A DNA stretch of 33,738 bases from Sphingobacterium thalpophilum (GTDB lineage Bacteria; Bacteroidota; Bacteroidia; B-17B0; Aurantibacillaceae): the NCBI GenBank assembly GCA_943325195.2, contig CALPON020000018.1, positions 1 to 33,738 on the forward strand, in the 5' to 3' direction. Below are positions 3,474-27,180 of this stretch, in pieces; the stretch's first letter is position 1, and every line of letters starts with the position of its first letter. A program made the position numbers and the translations under genes. A model generated the notes under the pieces. That model was not told where the DNA came from. It made no database searches and worked only from the letters and a program-made list of their open reading frames with translations.

Positions 3474-3977
3474 TTAGGGACTCACTCGTCCCTGTAAGCC
3501 GTTATCTAGGGGTTTCCCAATCACCGTTCCTCCAGCAATTTTAAGCATCTGAATAAGGTTATTTTGTGTATCCCAATAAGACCCACTCTCGGGACGTATA
3601 CAAATCAAACTTAGATCCGAATCATCTTTTCCTTCTGAAAACCAGGTCTTCACAAGCGGGGACCAAAGTTCCTCAATTTTGTTCTTGTTTCTGGAAATCT
3701 CTGCACTGCCATAAAGGGAAAGGTATTCGGAGGTATCTTTATTACTGAAAAAAAGTTGCACATGCTGATCTTTTCGGATATGGCTGTTTTGCTCGGAAGA
3801 CTTACTGCTGAAGAACCAAAGTGATCCATCCTCATCCACTTTGATGCAGTGCATGGGACGGACAGACACTGGCAAACTTGTTAAATTGGTTGCAAAAAGA
3901 CAGACATTTGCTTTTTCATATAGTTCTTTGATTTTTGCAGCGGCCTCTTTACCTGTTAAATTACTAGTGTCACCCAT
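3474..3977 (-). CDS. Pyridoxamine 5'-phosphate oxidase-like general stress protein
   Basis: This 167-aa protein has the split-barrel, flavin-binding fold of the general-stress-protein-26 group. Visible features are the first strand with CLFATN, then VSVRPMHCIKVDEDGSLWFFS, the (S/T)RPM-like motif and the W-F-F core strand. Downstream are HVQLFF and YLSLYGSAEI. The family binds FMN, FAD or F420 and is often of unknown substrate; these proteins are not true PNP oxidases. The end of the protein (SGSYWDT) is also typical of the group. The start ATG at 3977 is 12 bp after the stop of the tail behind the serine hydrolase, so it may be transcribed with that gene. No terminator is visible between this gene and the E2 promoter. 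Confidence 0.85.
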   Translation of the reverse strand: MGDTSNLTGKEAAAKIKELYEKANVCLFATNLTSLPVSVRPMHCIKVDEDGSLWFFSSKSSEQNSHIRKDQHVQLFFSNKDTSEYLSLYGSAEISRNKNKIEELWSPLVKTWFSEGKDDSDLSLICIRPESGSYWDTQNNLIQMLKIAGGTVIGKPLDNGLQGRVSP

Positions 3978-3989
3978 CGTCTTTTGTTT

Positions 3990-4299
3990 TCACAAAGGCT
4001 GCAAAATCCCTGCCTGCTTCGATTCCAAAGTGAGAAGTTGCAGCTCGGGGTTTTGGTAAAGTAGTAATTGCATCTGGTTCAGGATTGCCAGAGCAGAGAA
4101 GGTGCTGCTTTTCTCCAGCATCTCCTTAAAATCTGTTTCGGAATAAATACGATATTCAGGTTTATTTCTCCTGTCATTGCGATTCTCAAGTACATCGCTT
4201 AATTGTGCGATTTGTGTAATAAGTTCTTCGTGCTGATATAAAAGTTTATCCAGCGCCTTACGCCCGGTAAAGTATCCCAGAATCGCTTCAGCATAAGGA
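3990..4299 (-). pseudogene. Out-of-frame C-terminal coding segment behind the serine hydrolase
   Basis: Past the serine hydrolase stop, another minus-strand frame (+1 relative to the hydrolase) stays open for about 100 codons and looks like real protein: AEAILGYFTGRKALDKLLYQ, then HEELITQIAQLSDVLEN, YRIYSETDFKEMLEK and LAILNQMQLLLYQ, an amphipathic helical pattern. It has no ATG, GTG or TTG until an internal Met near 4127, so it has no start of its own. The same frame is open upstream to 4502, but there it only shadows the hydrolase. Either a frameshift has detached an original C-terminal extension from the hydrolase, or this is the 3' remnant of a lost gene. I do not recognise the domain. 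Confidence 0.45.
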
Positions 4300-5550
4300 T
4301 CAGATGGAACTTCTTTCCTGAAATAAGGGCGTGGAAAGTTGAAGAAAATGCCAAGGCAGGGCATCGAGTTCTTTCCAGAATTGGGGACTGTTATCGCCGC
4401 GTCCATTAAATAAAAAGGTCCAGCAGTAACCTTCTCTGGTAGTCCCTGTAAAGCTGGCAGTGCCGTCCAGACTGCCGGTATGCCAAAAGGTCCCTTTTGC
4501 ATTTACAAACCAGCCTTTGGCGTAATTTTTAGAGGCGCTGCTCGCTTGCAGCATCTGTTTTACCGCCGCCTCATTAAGCAGGGGGTATGGTCCCTCGTAA
4601 CGATTGAGATTGTTTACAAATCGGCAAATTTCATCTGCCGTCCCAAGCCAACCGCCATGCGCATTCATAGCTTCAATGTTATAGGCACCGTAGGCGCAGG
4701 AAACCAGCGTCTTATCTCCATAACAGGACAGTCCAAGTTCGTCACTAAAGTAATAAGTCTCTCGTTGCTGCTGCTCTGCCAGCCTTGTTTTACCTAGCAC
4801 AAAGTCACTAAGGCCCATTGGCTGAAATACTTCCTGTTGCATAAAATCAGCATAGGTTTCGCCCGTCACCTCTTCAATAATTTTCCCTAAAATCAAATAC
4901 CCGATGTTAGAATACGCGAAGACTTCTCCCGGCGAATGGTCAAGTCCGCGACGAAGCGAATAACGGATGAGTGCATCCTCCGTTACCGGATTGGTTGAGG
5001 ATTCCGTCCGCGTCACCAATAAAGGAATAAAAGGTGGGTCACCGGACCCTTGCTGATTTGTGTGGCTGAAACGATCCCAACCGGCAGTATGCTCCAACAG
5101 ATTTTGAACGGTAATGGCGTAAATAGCGGGATCAGAAATAACCTCTGTGTAAAAACGGTCTTCCAGCAATGCACCTGCCCCAAATACGCGCTGGCTGAGT
5201 GTGAGTCGATGTTCCTGAACTAATTTCATGATGCCGGCAGCGGTAAAACATTTTGAAATACTGGCTACTCTGAAACGGGTATCGCTCTGCACGGGCTGAA
5301 GGAGTTGCTGATCGCGGTAACCGAGTCCTTTTCGATAAACTACCTGACCCTCTTTATAAATAGCAATACTCGCACCCTGAATCAGCCAGCGCTTCATAAA
5401 TGAAGTAAAAAGGCTATCCGCTGCTTGCTCTCGATTTTGTGCCCGCAGCGAAAGCACACTGAGGAGGAAAATGAATGCTGTAATAAAAACGCGCTGATTT
5501 TTAATTTTCGATAGGAGCGAACTTACATAAGGTGTCTTCTGAATTCTCAC
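4300..5550 (-). CDS. Exported serine hydrolase of the beta-lactamase / class C penicillin-binding family
   Basis: The 416-aa protein has an N-terminal signal peptide (hydrophobic stretch at about 21-35 ending LSLRAQ). The three active-site motifs are present: SISK at 97-100 (nucleophile Ser97, Lys100), Y-S-N at 213-215 and H-T-G at 357-359. Family members are periplasmic or surface esterases, D-aminopeptidases or peptidases; true beta-lactamase activity is not implied. The fold normally ends about 50 residues after HTG, and here the last residues (TPLFQERSSI) look like out-of-frame sequence, with a coherent tail continuing in another frame. The start is GTG at 5550; no in-frame ATG exists before the signal peptide. 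A TAnnTTTG box ends only 4 nt upstream, so the mRNA may be leaderless. Confidence 0.88.
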   Translation of the reverse strand: MRIQKTPYVSSLLSKIKNQRVFITAFIFLLSVLSLRAQNREQAADSLFTSFMKRWLIQGASIAIYKEGQVVYRKGLGYRDQQLLQPVQSDTRFRVASISKCFTAAGIMKLVQEHRLTLSQRVFGAGALLEDRFYTEVISDPAIYAITVQNLLEHTAGWDRFSHTNQQGSGDPPFIPLLVTRTESSTNPVTEDALIRYSLRRGLDHSPGEVFAYSNIGYLILGKIIEEVTGETYADFMQQEVFQPMGLSDFVLGKTRLAEQQQRETYYFSDELGLSCYGDKTLVSCAYGAYNIEAMNAHGGWLGTADEICRFVNNLNRYEGPYPLLNEAAVKQMLQASSASKNYAKGWFVNAKGTFWHTGSLDGTASFTGTTREGYCWTFLFNGRGDNSPQFWKELDALPWHFLQLSTPLFQERSSI

Positions 5551-5562: not shown

Positions 5563-5803
5563 CGCTTAACAGGCCAGATGTTCGGTCAAAGCAGGTTTTT
5601 AAAGCCTGAAAAGATGTTAATAGTAGCCGCTCTGAAAGCCAATACTGATAAGGCTTTAAGGGTTTTTTCAACCTATTTTTTATTAAAAAATGGCAAGCCC
5701 CTTGTAACCTTTTTGAAGTGCTCCGTTTTATAACGGATACGGCGGCACAAGTACTTTTTTAATTCTTGTCAATAATGCCGATATTCGGGCTAATATTCAG
5801 CAT

Positions 5804-6328
5804 ATGGACACAGTCATTGATCTTCTTAAAATTTTATTACCAGCCGGTGCGGTTTTTGCAGCCGCTTATTTAATTGTGAAACGTTTTCTTGACAATGAAC
5901 GTGACCGGCGTGAACTTGAAAACAAAAGGCAGAATCAGGCTGCTGTGACGCCTCTTCGACTGCAGGCCTATGAGCGCATCGTGATTTTCTTGGAACGGAT
6001 TAATCCCAGCGCACTGGTTGTTCGTGTAGGTCGCAACGGACTTAATGCACAACAATTTCAGCTGGAATTAATAAAGGCCATCAAGGCGGAGTATGAACAT
6101 AATTTATCGCAGCAAATCTACATGAGTTATAATGCCTGGGAATTGGTGAAAACAACTAAAGAGGAAATAATTAAATTGGTTAACATTACTTCTACAAAAG
6201 TCCCACATGAAAGTCCTGCCAACGACCTGGCACTTGCCATTTTAAATATATCCGGCAGTCTGGGAAAAAAACTGCCAAATGATGTGGCACTTGAATTCAT
6301 AAAAAAAGAAGTAAGAGGAATTTTCTAG
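5804..6328 (+). CDS. Membrane-anchored conserved Bacteroidota protein upstream of mutA
   Basis: The protein is 174 aa with one N-terminal transmembrane helix (about 8-26, LLKILLPAGAVFAAAYLIV) followed by KRFLDNERDRRE, so the remainder is probably cytoplasmic. The soluble part is helical, with LQAYERIVIFLERINPSAL and later NAWELVKTTKEEIIKLVN. I recognise this as the type of conserved hypothetical protein found in many Bacteroidota (the DUF7935-like group, from memory), with no known activity. It ends 6 bp before the mutA ATG and is probably co-transcribed with mutA-mutB, which suggests a role linked to that enzyme or to its membrane context. That link is inference from position only. Confidence 0.75.
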   Translation: MDTVIDLLKILLPAGAVFAAAYLIVKRFLDNERDRRELENKRQNQAAVTPLRLQAYERIVIFLERINPSALVVRVGRNGLNAQQFQLELIKAIKAEYEHNLSQQIYMSYNAWELVKTTKEEIIKLVNITSTKVPHESPANDLALAILNISGSLGKKLPNDVALEFIKKEVRGIF

Positions 6329-6334
6329 TTGTTT

Positions 6335-7624
6335 ATGAAAGATTTGTTCAGTCAGTTCACACCGCTTACTGCGAAGGCCTGGAAGGTCCAGCTCGAAAAG
6401 GATTTAAAGGGCGTCTCGCTTGAAGATCTTGACTGGCAGAATGAAAATGGATTTGTGATTCATCCTTTTTACACCGCAGAAGATCAGCAGCAAGTCTATG
6501 CCCCTGCTTTTACCCACCGTGAATGGCGAATGATGGTGAAAGGGGAGGAAGGGAGTGATACGTTTCTTAATGAGTTTTTTCTGCGCTCTCTTAATGGCGG
6601 TGCTGATGCCTTGATGGTCAATCTCACAGCGCGCGATTTTTCTACATTGCTGAATAATATTCGTCTCGATTATATTGAATCCTGCTTTTTTGTGGGCACT
6701 GGAGAACTTAATCGTCTTAACAACTATCTCACAGAGCATTACCCCGAGGCTCTTCCTGCACTGCGACTGCTGCCAGTGGATATAAACGCTGCAGCGGCAT
6801 TAAAAGTCTGGCAGGATTCCGCTAGCAGCTTGCTAAAGGAACGTGTATCTGCAGCCGATGTATTCGTTTTCCATAATCAAAATTGTGGCGCAGCACTTGA
6901 AATTGCGCTCGTCTTTGCTATTTTAGCAGAGTATGCTGAATTTAATGAAGACCTGAGCGGACAGTGCACCATTCGTGCCGGTATCAGCGCTGATTACTTT
7001 GTGCAAATGGCTAAGCTGCGCGCAATACGGCGACTCTGGGAAGTATTCCGCACTGAATGGAAATTAACAAGCGAACCTTTTATTATTGCAGAAACAAGTC
7101 TGACTAATAAGACAATTTCTGACCGACACAATAACTTGCTTCGCACCTCAGTGGAAGCTATGGCTGCTATTTCTGGTGGTTGCAATGCTTTGGTAGTGAA
7201 TGATTACGAAGTATTGAAAGGCGATTCTGATGCTCTTTCCCAGCGAATGGCACTCAACCAACAACATATTCTAAAAGAAGAATCCTATTTTGATAAAATG
7301 GCAGACAGTGCCTGCGGTTCATTTTATATGGAACACTTAACAGATGCTCTGGCCGAAAAGGCCTTGCAACATTTTAAAATCATTCAGGAACAGGGAGGTT
7401 ACTTTAAATGTCTGCAGAGTGGGATGATTCAGCAACGTATTTCTGAGGTTGCACAGCAAAGTAATGAGGCATTTCTTAAGAATGAAGTCATCGTAACCGG
7501 CATCAACAAGTACCGAAATGAAAAGGAAAAAATTGCGCTCTCCGATGTCCGACTGAATTTCCTCAAAAACCTTCAGATTGAAAATCCCGCTCTTCGTTTT
7601 GAATTACAGAATTTTTTTAACTGA
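6335..7624 (+). CDS. mutA: Methylmalonyl-CoA mutase small (beta) subunit
   Basis: This is the non-catalytic partner of MutB in the adenosylcobalamin enzyme that interconverts succinyl-CoA and methylmalonyl-CoA. The start resembles other small subunits (LFSQFTPLTAKAWKVQLEKD), and family motifs later include LRTSVEAMAAISGG and CGSFYMEHLTDALAEKA. The barrel domain spans nearly the whole 429 aa. The C-terminal cobalamin-domain-like part of longer small subunits (over 600 aa, as in Propionibacterium) is absent, as in other short Bacteroidota versions. I use the ATG at 6335 rather than the TTG at 6329, which abuts the upstream stop. It is 3 bp upstream of mutB, a tight translational pair. Confidence 0.92.
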   Translation: MKDLFSQFTPLTAKAWKVQLEKDLKGVSLEDLDWQNENGFVIHPFYTAEDQQQVYAPAFTHREWRMMVKGEEGSDTFLNEFFLRSLNGGADALMVNLTARDFSTLLNNIRLDYIESCFFVGTGELNRLNNYLTEHYPEALPALRLLPVDINAAAALKVWQDSASSLLKERVSAADVFVFHNQNCGAALEIALVFAILAEYAEFNEDLSGQCTIRAGISADYFVQMAKLRAIRRLWEVFRTEWKLTSEPFIIAETSLTNKTISDRHNNLLRTSVEAMAAISGGCNALVVNDYEVLKGDSDALSQRMALNQQHILKEESYFDKMADSACGSFYMEHLTDALAEKALQHFKIIQEQGGYFKCLQSGMIQQRISEVAQQSNEAFLKNEVIVTGINKYRNEKEKIALSDVRLNFLKNLQIENPALRFELQNFFN

Positions 7625-22139: not shown

Positions 22140-25100
22140 ATGCGCTTCCGAAAAACTTTTATACTCAGCCTCCTCTTCTTGAGCGCTTTTTTCAAAGCCC
22201 AGCATCAGGATAATCCCCGTGTGGTGACGCCACATGTTAGTCCAGCCCTCAGGTTCACTGAAAATCAGGGACAATGGGAAGAAAAAATTCTTTTTCGCAG
22301 TACACTCTGGGGCGGTGCTTTGTATGTGGAGAAAAATGCGTTGACCTTTAGTTTTTTTGATCAGAAAAAATTAAGTCTTATTCACCAAGCCGGCATTAAT
22401 AAAGGGCAGGTGACCGACCTGACCATTAAACGACATGCATATCAGGTGCGTTTCGAGAATGCCAATCCAGAACCCCATGTTGAAAAACAGCAAATGGGTT
22501 CCGATTATGAAAATTTTTATCTCGGCAATGATCAGTCCCGCTGGCGCGGCAATGTGCACAATTACCATCAAATTTTTTTACGTGCCCTTTATCCCGGAAT
22601 TGATTACGAATTAATAACGGCTGTTAAGGGTATGAAGTATAACTTCCACATTCGTGCGGGATCAGAACCTTCGCAGATCCGCATGAAGTATGATGGCGTG
22701 GATAAAATGTATCTTAAGGATGGCGCTTTGTATGTTAAGCTGCAGGTCAATGAAGTCAAGGAACAGCGGCCCTATGCGTATCAGCGGATTAATGGGGAAA
22801 TTAAAGAGGTTGCCTGCAGTTACAAATTAGAAAACAATGTCCTTGGTTTTGTTTTCCCAAAAGGCTACGATAAAAAATATGACCTGGTGATTGACCCGAT
22901 CTTGGTATTTGCTGCGCAAAGTGGCAGCACTGCTGACAATTTTGGGATGACAGCCACCTACGATGCGCAGGGCAATTTATATGCAGGTGGAACTTGTTTT
23001 GATACGGGCTATCCTGTCAGTATGGGGGCCTTTAGTACCAGTTTTAACGGCAACCCAAGCGCGGGGATTTCAGATGTCGTAATCACAAAATATAATTCCA
23101 CCGGAAATGCTTTACTTTTTTCCACCTACATAGGCGGCTCACAGGCAGAGATTGTAACCAGTCTGGTGGTTGATCACAGTAATAACCTCTGTTTCTATGG
23201 TGCTACTGGTTCATCTAATTTCCCCATGCTGAGTAATTCTTTTGATGCAAGCTTTAATGGGGGAACAGGATTGAGTTTTATTTTTAATGGCACCTCCTTC
23301 AATTTCGGAACCGATATTTACCTCGCAAAATTTAATGCTTCCGGTACATCGCTTTTGGCTAGCACGTTTCTGGGGGGCAGTGGTAATGATGGCGTCAATC
23401 ACGTCAACCATTTAACAGTATTGCAGTTTCCTTCTTTTTCTGTTCTTGAATATTTTACTGATTCCTTACAATTTAATTATGGCGACCAGTACCGGGGAGA
23501 AATTCAAGTCGATGTCGCAAATAATATCTATATCGCCAGCAGCACCCGTTCCAGCAACTTTCCGATTGTGAACGGATTTGACAATAGCTTAGGAGGGAAG
23601 CAGGATGCTGTAGTTTGCAAGTTAAACAGTTCTCTTTCGCAATTAATTTACTCCACCTATCTCGGCGGTAGCAGCAATGAAGCGGGAAATGCATTAATTG
23701 TGAAGGATAATATGGAGGTCTACGTCACTGGTGGCACCTGCTCTCCTGATTTTTCCACCACCAATGGTGCTTTCGATCAGACCTACAATGGGGGATCGGC
23801 AGATGCATTTGTTTCTCATATCAGCGCAAATGGAAGTGTTTTGCTGCAATCTACTTTCCTGGGGACGAGTAATTATGATCAGTCCTATTTCGTGCAAGAC
23901 GACAAGTACGGCAACATCTACTTGTATGGACAGTCCTTAGGTAATATTTCGGTGCTCGCAGCCTCTAATGCCACAGCAGTATTCAGTAATCCAGGTAGAC
24001 ATCAGTTTATCACCCGTTTCAACAGCACGCTCGCGACGCGGAATCTCTCCACTGTCTTTGGATCACAGACGACAAATGTTGACATTTCACCTTGCGCGTT
24101 TGCTGTAGATAAGTGTAATAACATTTACCTGAGCGGTTGGGGCGGAAATATTATTACGCAGGGAGCGCCTCTTCTCAGCAATATGCCTCTGTTTCAGCCG
24201 ACGCAAGGTACAACTACGGGATTTGATTTTTATTTTTTAGGATTAGACAGTAATGCACAGGCGATTAAATACGGGTCTTATTTTGGTGGCGCTTCTAGTC
24301 AGGAGCATGTGGATGGGGGCACTTCCCGTTTTGATCCGGCGGGCCGTATTTATCAATCCGCCTGCGCTGGCTGTGGTGGTTTCGATGACTGGCCGGTCAC
24401 ACCCGGAGCTTGGCCCCTTCAGCCTGGCAATCCCAATAATTCATTTAATTGCAATAATGGCGTGGTAAAACTTGATTTTCAGTTGCAGACCGCCCTTGCC
24501 ACGATACAGACGGCGACTATGGCAGGATGTGCGCCTTTTGTTGCCACCTTTACCAGCGCCACGCCCCCCACGGGTTCGGGCTCGACCTATGTCTGGTACT
24601 TGGCGCCGGGACAAACAACCTCTAATAATCCCACTCCAACTATTACTTACACTGCGGCTGGTGTCTACACGGTTGCTTTGGTTGTGAAGGACAATCTGAC
24701 CTGCAACAAGAAAGATAGTGCCGTTACCTATGTCACGATTTATCCGAAACCAACGGCTCTGATTAGCTTCACGGGCGCAGGCTGCAGCAATGTTATCTCC
24801 GTTCAGGCAAATTCTACTGGGAATTTGGGAACGAATCCGCACTTCTGGAATTTTGCACCCATTACCAGTACAGCGGCAGCTCTGAGTTATACCTATCCCG
24901 CCAATGGGAATTACAATTTAAGCTATACGGTAACGGACCTGAATGGCTGTAAAGATGTCAAGACGCAGACCGTTTCCGTATTTAGTTTTAGTCCCGGCGC
25001 TGTGACCAGCGCAAGTCTTTGCGCAGGAAAAACGGCTACACTGAATGCCAGTGGTGGCACAAGTTACAGCTGGTCACCGACTTCTAATTTGAATGGCAGC

Positions 25101-26708
25101 ACACTTGCAGCACCTCAGGTATCACCTCCCACCAGTACTAGTTACAGTGTGGTCATTACGAATAATACGCCCGGCTATAATTGCACTGCGACCTTGGTCA
25201 CACAAGTGATTGTCCTACCCAATCCAACAGCCAACTTTAGTCTAAATTCTTCTCCGTGCTCCAACACCGTCATCACCAATAATTTTTCTTCCGGTAATCT
25301 GGGACCTGTTCCTTTTCAGTGGGCTTTTGGAAATGGCAGTGGTCCAAATACCAATGTAGCGCCGTTTTATACTTATCCCGGCAACGGTACTTTTTCAGTG
25401 ACACTGACGGTGACGGATATAAATGGCTGTCAGAGTGCACTCACAAATACCATTGCCATTTTTAATTTTACGCCCGGTGTGGTCAGCAGTTCCAGTCTTT
25501 GTTATGGCAATACAACCACGCTAGTCGCACAGGGAGGTAATAGTTATAGCTGGACACCCGCTGCTTCTCTCAGCAGCAGTTTAACTGGTTTGACAGCTGC
25601 CAATCCTACCACCACCACCATTTATACAGTACAGATTGAAAACAATACGCCGGGCTACACCTGCGCTCGGACCTTAACCACACAAATCCTCGTTCGACCC
25701 ACACCGACTGCCAATTTTGATTTTAACATCAATCCCTGCGGCGGGGGTGTTAACTTTATTGATCAGAGTGCCGATGAGGTGGTCAGCTGGAGCTGGACCC
25801 TGACACCGACTCGGACCAGCACGCTTCAGAATCCATATAATTTTTATACAGCAGGGGGACAGTATACCATTACATTAACCACCACCAATATTTACGGCTG
25901 TCCAAATACGCGGACAAAAGACCTCGGCGTTCCTGTGCCGCCCCCATTGCGGGCTTCCGGAGACAGCAGTATCTGCAAGGGTTCAAGTATACAATTGGCT
26001 GCAGAAGGCGGCGTATCCTACGACTGGTCGCCACCGGGGACACTCGATTTTCCGGCTTTAAACAATCCGATTGCTACGCCCTTGGTGACGACCGATTACA
26101 GTGTGAATATTACGACATCGCAGGTGGTGAATGGAAACGTGTGTAAATTTATTCTCACCGTGAAGGTAAAGGTCGATTTGCTGAGTACCACACCCATCAG
26201 TGGCAATGCCAATCCGGTGATAGTGACAGTAGGTGATCCAAGTCAACTGACGTATGTTGGCCAAGCCGGTGCAGTGATTAAATGGTTACCATCTGGTTCA
26301 ACCACTCCAGCCACAGGCTACACTGTGCTGGCATATCCTATGCGACCAACTACCTATACGGCTGTTGCGTCACGCGGTGCCTGCACCGAAGAAGTGGAGG
26401 TGCATGTGGATGCCTACACAGCTGGATGTGCCACCAAGGATTTTTTCATTCCAAATACCTTTACTCCTAACGGCGATGGACATAATGATATCTTATACGT
26501 GCGCAGTCTGAAGACAGATGAACTTTATTTTTCTGTTTATAACCGATGGGGTGAACTTGTTTTTGAAACAACGGATGCAGCGCAGGGTTGGGATGGTCGT
26601 TTCAAAGGCAAGGAGGCCGATTCAGGGGTCTTTGGTTATTATTTGCGCGTGAAGTGCGCAAACGGAGGGGAGACCTTTAGCAAAGGAAATGTGACACTGA
26701 TTCGCTAA
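22140..26708 (+). CDS. Giant secreted surface protein with DUF7948-like N-terminus, SBBP repeats, PKD modules and T9SS type B sorting domain
   Basis: The 1522-aa protein has a signal peptide (RKTFILSLLFLSAFFKAQ). Residues about 35-255 resemble the DUF7948-type N-terminal domain (FTENQGQWEEKILFRS, GIDYELITAVKGMKYNFHI). Residues about 260-780 hold SBBP-type propeller repeats (DVVITKYNSTGNALLFSTYI, DIYLAKFNASGTSLLASTFL, then DAVVCKLNSSLSQLIYSTYL). From about 785 follow PKD-like domains in a tandem module (separate entry). Residues about 1436-1522 are the type B sorting domain: FIPNTFTPNGDGHNDIL, YNRWGELVFET, then GWDGRFKG. Type B domains target export by T9SS and surface attachment or release. 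A role in adhesion or gliding is plausible but not shown. The gene is monocistronic, divergent from der. Confidence 0.92.
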   Translation: MRFRKTFILSLLFLSAFFKAQHQDNPRVVTPHVSPALRFTENQGQWEEKILFRSTLWGGALYVEKNALTFSFFDQKKLSLIHQAGINKGQVTDLTIKRHAYQVRFENANPEPHVEKQQMGSDYENFYLGNDQSRWRGNVHNYHQIFLRALYPGIDYELITAVKGMKYNFHIRAGSEPSQIRMKYDGVDKMYLKDGALYVKLQVNEVKEQRPYAYQRINGEIKEVACSYKLENNVLGFVFPKGYDKKYDLVIDPILVFAAQSGSTADNFGMTATYDAQGNLYAGGTCFDTGYPVSMGAFSTSFNGNPSAGISDVVITKYNSTGNALLFSTYIGGSQAEIVTSLVVDHSNNLCFYGATGSSNFPMLSNSFDASFNGGTGLSFIFNGTSFNFGTDIYLAKFNASGTSLLASTFLGGSGNDGVNHVNHLTVLQFPSFSVLEYFTDSLQFNYGDQYRGEIQVDVANNIYIASSTRSSNFPIVNGFDNSLGGKQDAVVCKLNSSLSQLIYSTYLGGSSNEAGNALIVKDNMEVYVTGGTCSPDFSTTNGAFDQTYNGGSADAFVSHISANGSVLLQSTFLGTSNYDQSYFVQDDKYGNIYLYGQSLGNISVLAASNATAVFSNPGRHQFITRFNSTLATRNLSTVFGSQTTNVDISPCAFAVDKCNNIYLSGWGGNIITQGAPLLSNMPLFQPTQGTTTGFDFYFLGLDSNAQAIKYGSYFGGASSQEHVDGGTSRFDPAGRIYQSACAGCGGFDDWPVTPGAWPLQPGNPNNSFNCNNGVVKLDFQLQTALATIQTATMAGCAPFVATFTSATPPTGSGSTYVWYLAPGQTTSNNPTPTITYTAAGVYTVALVVKDNLTCNKKDSAVTYVTIYPKPTALISFTGAGCSNVISVQANSTGNLGTNPHFWNFAPITSTAAALSYTYPANGNYNLSYTVTDLNGCKDVKTQTVSVFSFSPGAVTSASLCAGKTATLNASGGTSYSWSPTSNLNGSTLAAPQVSPPTSTSYSVVITNNTPGYNCTATLVTQVIVLPNPTANFSLNSSPCSNTVITNNFSSGNLGPVPFQWAFGNGSGPNTNVAPFYTYPGNGTFSVTLTVTDINGCQSALTNTIAIFNFTPGVVSSSSLCYGNTTTLVAQGGNSYSWTPAASLSSSLTGLTAANPTTTTIYTVQIENNTPGYTCARTLTTQILVRPTPTANFDFNINPCGGGVNFIDQSADEVVSWSWTLTPTRTSTLQNPYNFYTAGGQYTITLTTTNIYGCPNTRTKDLGVPVPPPLRASGDSSICKGSSIQLAAEGGVSYDWSPPGTLDFPALNNPIATPLVTTDYSVNITTSQVVNGNVCKFILTVKVKVDLLSTTPISGNANPVIVTVGDPSQLTYVGQAGAVIKWLPSGSTTPATGYTVLAYPMRPTTYTAVASRGACTEEVEVHVDAYTAGCATKDFFIPNTFTPNGDGHNDILYVRSLKTDELYFSVYNRWGELVFETTDAAQGWDGRFKGKEADSGVFGYYLRVKCANGGETFSKGNVTLIR
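24750..26180 (+). repeat. Tandem 158-160-residue PKD plus Ig-like modules inside the giant protein
   Basis: Three successive units begin with P-T-A at nt 24750, 25224 and 25704 (residues 871, 1029 and 1189), giving periods of 474 and 480 nt. Each has a PKD-like half (PTANFSLNSSPCSN, PTANFDFNINPCGG, with YTYPGNGTFSVTLTVTD and NGC) and a second half opening with SLCxGxTxTLxAxGGxSYSW and containing NNTPGY.C. The second unit is the closest to the first; the third is more divergent (SSICKGSSIQLAAEGGVSYDW). This is in-frame domain duplication, not a DNA repeat at nucleotide level. Confidence 0.8.
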
Positions 26709-26779: not shown

Positions 26780-26854
26780 GGTAGGTATAGCTCAGTTGGT
26801 TAGAGCATCGGTTTGTGGTACCGAGGGTCGTGGGTTCGAGTCCCATTACTTACC
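26780..26854 (+). tRNA. tRNA-His (anticodon GTG)
   Basis: A full cloverleaf can be drawn. G at -1 (26780) pairs with C73 (26854), the mark of tRNA-His. The acceptor arm GTAGGTA pairs with TACTTAC with one G-U. The D arm is GCTC...GAGC. The anticodon arm TCGGT-TTGTGGT-ACCGA carries anticodon GTG. The variable loop is 5 nt, and the T arm GTGGG-TTCGAGT-CCCAT is normal. CCA is not encoded. An imperfect -7 box (TAATTTCG, 26760-26767) lies 12 nt upstream. Confidence 0.97.
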
Positions 26855-26865
26855 CGGAGAAAAAA

Positions 26866-26890
26866 AACCCGGTGAATACCGGGTTTTTTT
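26866..26890 (+). terminator. Intrinsic terminator of tRNA-His
   Basis: AACCCGGT (26866-26873) pairs with ACCGGGTT (26878-26885) around a GAAT loop and is followed by T residues. It begins 11 bp after the tRNA. Confidence 0.9.
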
Positions 26891-26970
26891 ATGGGGATAC
26901 TTGGTGTTTATTCTCGTTTGATTCAAACTTTCCTTTTATAGTTCTGGAATCAAGATTGCATCCTTGGAAC

Positions 26971-27180
26971 ATGAATTATTCACGATTAACGATAGCCTTT
27001 TTTTTTATAGTATTAATCACAGGCTGTCATAAGAAACGGGCTGCCTGCTATGATGAGGCCCTAAAAAAAAGCACAGAGACGGTACGCTGCAGCTCCGATT
27101 GTCCCGGTATAAAAGGCTGCGATGGAAATTTTTACTGTAATGAATGCGTGGCTGCCATGTCTGGCATTCGCCCTGAATAA
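26971..27180 (+). CDS. Small Kazal-like cysteine-rich lipoprotein
   Basis: The 69-aa protein begins with a lipoprotein signal (LTIAFFFIVLITGC, lipobox ITGC, lipidated Cys19). The mature part of about 50 aa has six further Cys: RAAC, VRCSSDCPGIKGCDG, then FYCNEC, followed by VAAMSGI. Spacing and the CPGIKGCDGNFYCNEC core resemble Kazal-type inhibitor domains (C...GCDGxxYxNxC), here in a compact form. It may inhibit proteases at the surface, but many small Kazal-like lipoproteins have no known target. I start at ATG 26971; the frame is open upstream to 26815, but that would run through the tRNA and its terminator. The gene ends at a bidirectional terminator shared with topA. Confidence 0.7.
   Translation: MNYSRLTIAFFFIVLITGCHKKRAACYDEALKKSTETVRCSSDCPGIKGCDGNFYCNECVAAMSGIRPE

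Follow-up and report, generated by a model that had tools for sequence, protein, structure and literature searches.

A probable small orphan gene, its start obscured, behind a serine hydrolase gene in a Bacteroidota genome

Long overlaps between neighboring genes on the same strand were examined by Palleja et al., and in the available parts of that article not one of the 715 same-strand overlaps of more than 60 bp was accepted as real, with 409 of the 715 attributed to problems at the 5′ end of the downstream gene and 163 to fragmentation by a frameshift (Palleja et al., 2008; PMC2478687). The same parts indicate that well-characterized genes were covered, and that an overlap that is not conserved might still be real. 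The overlap considered here, between a serine hydrolase gene and an open reading frame that we call the tail, resembles those cases in lying on one strand, in exceeding 60 nt and in involving the 3′ end of an upstream gene that is itself complete. It differs from them, as far as these parts of the article describe them, in that no orthologue of its downstream gene is known and that none of this gene’s later starts would yield most of its product; the 409 5′-end cases had usable later starts downstream, whereas the first later start in the tail is at 4121. Because none of the 715 overlaps was judged real in what is available of this survey (PMC2478687), it would be unusual for a same-strand overlap of 65 nt to be a working one.

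The hydrolase itself can be compared with two kinds of described proteins. Short-form Bacteroidota PF00144 hydrolases, exemplified by the one in JAJONO010000023.1 (loci L064 and L003), carry the same motifs as our hydrolase and end a few residues from it, and this example is about 45-47% identical to ours over most of the length. It differs from our locus in what comes next, which by eye is an unrelated PAS-like ORF, without the tail ORF. Long-form homologues, found in Hymenobacter, Rufibacter and others, share the catalytic domain with our hydrolase, but in place of our helical tail they have a C-terminal extension of their own, about 200 residues long.

The window, by which we mean the whole 33,738-nt stretch of DNA that was analyzed, is a single contig of a 2.9-Mb genome assembled in 217 contigs, and the features around the junction are collected in Table 1. 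A sequence-only reading of this DNA had placed the end of the hydrolase at 4300 and had the +1 frame staying open to 3990, and we confirmed the TGA codon at each of these ends. The tail stop is followed after 12 nt by the PNPOx-like gene. Elsewhere in the window, a DUF7935 (PF25589) gene (5804-6328, + strand) lies immediately 5′ of a methylmalonyl-CoA mutase-family gene (6329-7624), and a repeat-rich, probably secreted protein of 1522 aa is encoded at 22140-26708 (+ strand), with a C-terminus resembling what we take to be a gliding-motility/sorting domain. A tRNA-His gene (26781-26855, + strand) overlaps the 5′ end of an ORF that was listed mechanically (26815-27180), which makes the listed start of that ORF doubtful.

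Table 1. Features at the junction of the serine hydrolase gene and the tail, in window coordinates
Feature	Position	Strand	Description
Serine hydrolase	5550-4300	-	PF00144, beta-lactamase/AmpC-like family, 416 aa, start GTG 5550
Serine hydrolase stop	TGA 4302-4300	-	Read from sequence
Tail ORF	4364-3990	-	ATG 4364 to TGA 3992-3990, 124 codons, predicted helical, without known family
Tail part past hydrolase stop	4298-3993	-	102 whole codons, frame +1 (one base downstream)
Hydrolase/tail ORF overlap	4300-4364	-	65 nt, if the tail starts at ATG 4364
Startless coding stretch of tail	4122-4299	-	By coding score; without in-frame ATG/GTG/TTG past the hydrolase stop
Third-frame ATG	4294-4292	-	5 nt past the hydrolase stop; frame open for 31 codons
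PNPOx-like gene (pyridoxamine 5′-phosphate oxidase-like)	3474-3977	-	PF16242, Pfam E = 8.5e-42

Serine hydrolases of the PF00144 family are marked by the motifs S-x-x-K, Y-x-N and H/K-T-G, and sequence and alignment placed these in our hydrolase as SISK (residues 97-100), YSN (213-215) and HTG (357-359). The match to PF00144 covered residues 45-388 (E = 1.2e-55; 189.5 bits against a curated cut-off of 27), none of the best 25 of 50 NCBIfam families reached its curated cut-off, and by eye the N-terminus is signal-peptide-like. For the C-terminus, we used the best 80 of 102 homologue loci, from named genomes, together with four duplicates of these. The duplicates (L003, L004, L005 and L006, taken as copies of L064, L068, L142 and L113, respectively, because their contigs are equally long) were left out of the end counts, as was L115, which runs off its contig. 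This left, from the best 80 of 102, 79 distinct homologues whose stop could be read. Of these, 21 stop within query-equivalent positions 411-432, a range that includes the query’s own end at 416, and 58 end beyond 432. The six best homologues (L064-L069) end at 413, 424, 431, 468, 417 and 431; the other short-form homologues are mostly distant, at about 31-39% identity, and the nearest homologue found is only about 45-47% identical. The commonest longer end, at 590-632 (42 of the 58), corresponds to an extension of about 200 residues, which in many long homologues begins near ‘HDLFAPE’ and is unlike the helical tail. The family as sampled in L064-L143 comprises two classes, the short form and the long form with this extension, and all 26 Hymenobacter-titled loci among the best 80 of 102 have at least 183 residues past the match. 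Because the motifs are present and the C-terminus lies within the range of the short-form homologues, our hydrolase looks complete, as a predicted PF00144 enzyme.

These ends bear directly on the reading in which hydrolase and tail are a single gene, the enzyme having gained a helical C-terminal extension that a mutation or assembly indel near 4359-4305 then split from it. Such a history would fit a family in which C-terminal extensions are as common as the 58 of 79 longer ends (from the best 80 of 102) suggest, and a coding signal that changes frame where the hydrolase ends, with no gap to be seen; fragmentation also accounted for its share of long overlaps, 163 of 715, in the available parts of the survey (PMC2478687). 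The tail, however, is found in 0 of the 79 homologues (from the best 80 of 102), the usual long end is of the other, ‘HDLFAPE’ kind (42 of 58), and the 416-aa form already ends where the short class does. We consider a split gene unlikely, though it is the alternative that we would take most seriously. Neither the ends of the 79 distinct homologues with a stop nor a tail tblastn gave a case of tail and hydrolase in one frame, the nearest of these proteins being 45-47% identical; the best tblastn match of the tail over the homologue loci (best 80 of 102) had E = 0.68, and the ORFs 3′ of the L064-L069 hydrolases appeared by eye to be unrelated to the tail. A recent fusion of hydrolase and tail within this organism’s own lineage is possible, since the nearest hydrolase homologue found is no closer than that.

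The sequence-only reading had also raised recoding, with two forms of the enzyme as its outcome: programmed +1 frameshifting near the hydrolase stop would give a short form of a presumably secreted hydrolase and a minor, long one with a new helical C-terminal domain. The tail does occupy the +1 frame, and its score is that of coding sequence, but by eye the hydrolase stop shows no slippery context of the prfB kind, and no such frame break was seen in the 79 homologues (from the best 80 of 102). Programmed frameshifting was not mentioned among the literature matches listed. Recoding, which would be notable if true, is supported by nothing past the frame relation, and we regard it as highly unlikely; with a hydrolase that looks complete, homologues examined that lack the tail and no frameshift signal seen by eye, the proposal of a two-form enzyme found no support.

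To score coding potential, we built a period-3, order-4 model from 188 ORFs of at least 250 codons, found in 400 kb of this genome’s other contigs; one half of them served for training, unfiltered for shadow ORFs, and the other half for testing. The tail (4298-3993) scored +10.4 nats, at the 29th percentile of tail-sized true-frame segments (n = 405; mean 13.3, s.d. 6.3), and outscored all 2025 wrong-frame segments, whose maximum was 9.3. An open frame of the size of the tail arose with a frequency of 0.0023 in an order-1 Markov simulation (20,000 trials). On the strength of this score and of the rarity of such an open frame in simulation, the tail is very probably real coding sequence, and its earlier description as protein-like is borne out. 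That the frame is non-coding and open by chance would suit its want of homologues and the low confidence of its modeled fold, but a chance frame would have had to outscore 2025 of 2025 wrong-frame segments and to belong to the 0.0023 of simulated cases, and we hold this to be extremely unlikely.

The start of the tail is less plain. The earlier statement that it has no start of its own held for the region between the hydrolase stop and 4121, where the first in-frame ATG, GTG or TTG occurs, too late for most of the protein; it did not hold upstream, as tail-frame ATGs are present at 4364, 4406 and 4502, all within the hydrolase ORF. Over the overlap (4364-4303), the tail frame had a coding score of -5.3, against -0.3 for the hydrolase frame. 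The 20 nt upstream of ATG 4364 are 55% A+T, at the 15th percentile of the first ATGs of 274 long ORFs, which counts weakly against a start there. Codon by codon, 4317 was the best point for the switch from the hydrolase to the tail frame, and the other points between 4359 and 4305 were worse by at most about 3.3 nats. Given this spread, and a class of homologues that ends there, the claim that the last ten hydrolase residues are out of frame is not demonstrable. We also considered the third-frame ATG at 4294 as a lost start of the tail. Its frame scores below the tail frame once the fourth codon is reached, so an indel would need to lie close to ATG 4294 for it to have had this role, which is a possibility only.

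The search for other startless tails covered 712 gene ends and 184 same-strand pairs in 833 kb of the genome, with a scan to which a deep overlap and a frameshift look alike. At a threshold of 75 nt there were two cases, and only ours was judged valid among the 184 same-strand pairs. The second was a gene for elongation factor Tu (by eye) behind an upstream ORF taken as spurious; an extra case at 36 nt (in the window, + strand, 5731-6326), the DUF7935 gene, likewise lay behind an ORF taken as spurious, and both cases were dropped. A stricter scan (434 kb, 325 gene ends) returned one case, which was ours.

Relatives of the tail were sought in sets of relatives, genus, class, order and phylum genomes (60, 40, 395, 87 and 395, respectively), which overlap and include the organism’s own genome. 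Neither the 39 other genomes of the genus nor the 394 other phylum-sample genomes gave a match at E ≤ 0.01, and no homologue was found in the 60 relatives (own genome included). The best matches elsewhere had E = 0.008 in the 395 class genomes and E = 0.003 in the 87 order genomes (own genome included in each count), and those read proved to be unrelated proteins or frames interrupted by stops. Most of the weak matches were read, those to L027, L035, L036 and G312 being left out. By eye, four of them (G003, G016, G030 and G404) were to the coiled coil of GyrA and were rejected as chance; although these were the only mutually agreeing matches among those read, we discounted them because GyrA is expected in every genome. 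The match to an asparagine-synthetase-like C-terminus (G441; E = 0.003; by eye) contains two stops and was also put down to chance, as were sub-threshold matches, by eye, to a tetratricopeptide-like protein (G458), a coiled-coil protein (G008) and others.

Nothing passed in searches of the genome contigs, viral contigs, plasmids and phages with the tail, and the best match among PDB sequences had E = 0.83. Pfam gave no match up to E = 10 (hmmscan, whose filters drop most matches above 0.1), NCBIfam no family, and PHROGs a single match at E = 0.28. At 10 loci of PNPOx homologues in related genomes, one of which (L052) starts so near a contig end that it is uninformative, we saw by eye no tail-like or common gene upstream. 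An AlphaFold model from the single sequence was of low confidence (mean pLDDT 57.8, pTM 0.46); it predicts helix from residue 23, which, counted from ATG 4364, is the first whole codon past the hydrolase stop. The overlap encodes the first two blocks of ten residues in the model, and these had mean pLDDT of 30 and 37. A Foldseek search of solved structures with this low-confidence model gave a best E of 5.1. As far as can be seen from sequence, then, the tail would be an orphan, lineage-restricted gene, with a coding signal and no homologue in the collections searched. The sequence-only reading was to give way if homologues ended where the 416-aa form does and an independent complete gene matched the tail elsewhere; homologues ending like that form were found, whereas no independent complete gene was.

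The same searches weigh on a further account, in which a deletion brought the hydrolase end together with the 3′ portion of some other gene, leaving the tail as a 5′-truncated remnant and the last hydrolase residues as new. A stretch with a good coding signature, yet without a start past the hydrolase stop, is what such an event would leave, and the hydrolase C-terminus does vary among homologues. No fuller gene matching the tail turned up in the relatives, the genus, class, order and phylum genomes or the genome contigs, however, and the deletion would have to be recent, because the tail has no internal stop. This we judge improbable.

Overall, the tail is probably a small gene in its own right, specific to this lineage, with a start that either lies inside the hydrolase gene or has been broken by an indel. 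We read it as separate because no homologue examined has it as a part of the enzyme. Its coding score, the 21 of 79 short homologue ends, the homologues without a tail and the 12-nt spacing to the next gene support this reading, as would the first helix of the model, predicted to start right past the hydrolase stop. Against it stand the 58 of 79 homologues (from the best 80 of 102) with longer C-termini, though not with this tail, the frame switch, which also fits a frameshift within one gene, and the searches, in which no tail homologue, and so no stand-alone example, was found. The small gene would sit between a complete serine hydrolase gene and the PNPOx-like gene on the same strand, the three would probably be carried in one transcript, and its product would be a short helical protein. 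Translation may begin at ATG 4364, with the 65-nt overlap, or an indel near the junction, whether a mutation or an assembly error, may have separated the gene from a start that lay near the hydrolase stop. Between these, a broken 5′ end is slightly likelier than a working overlap, because long same-strand overlaps are disfavored in the available parts of the survey (PMC2478687) and no other valid startless tail occurred in the 833 kb. What the data show directly is that the hydrolase agrees with homologues up to its end, that the tail has a coding score and that it is missing from the homologues examined; its status as a gene of its own, the common transcript and the choice between the two starts are inferred. 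The frameshift mutation or assembly indel suggested earlier is possible near the junction.

The locus would accordingly be one more case, from a member of the Bacteroidota, of a small orphan gene whose start is obscured. It may also serve as a worked example of how a coding signal and the ends of homologues, taken together, can separate an enzyme with a lost tail from an enzyme followed by an unrelated gene.
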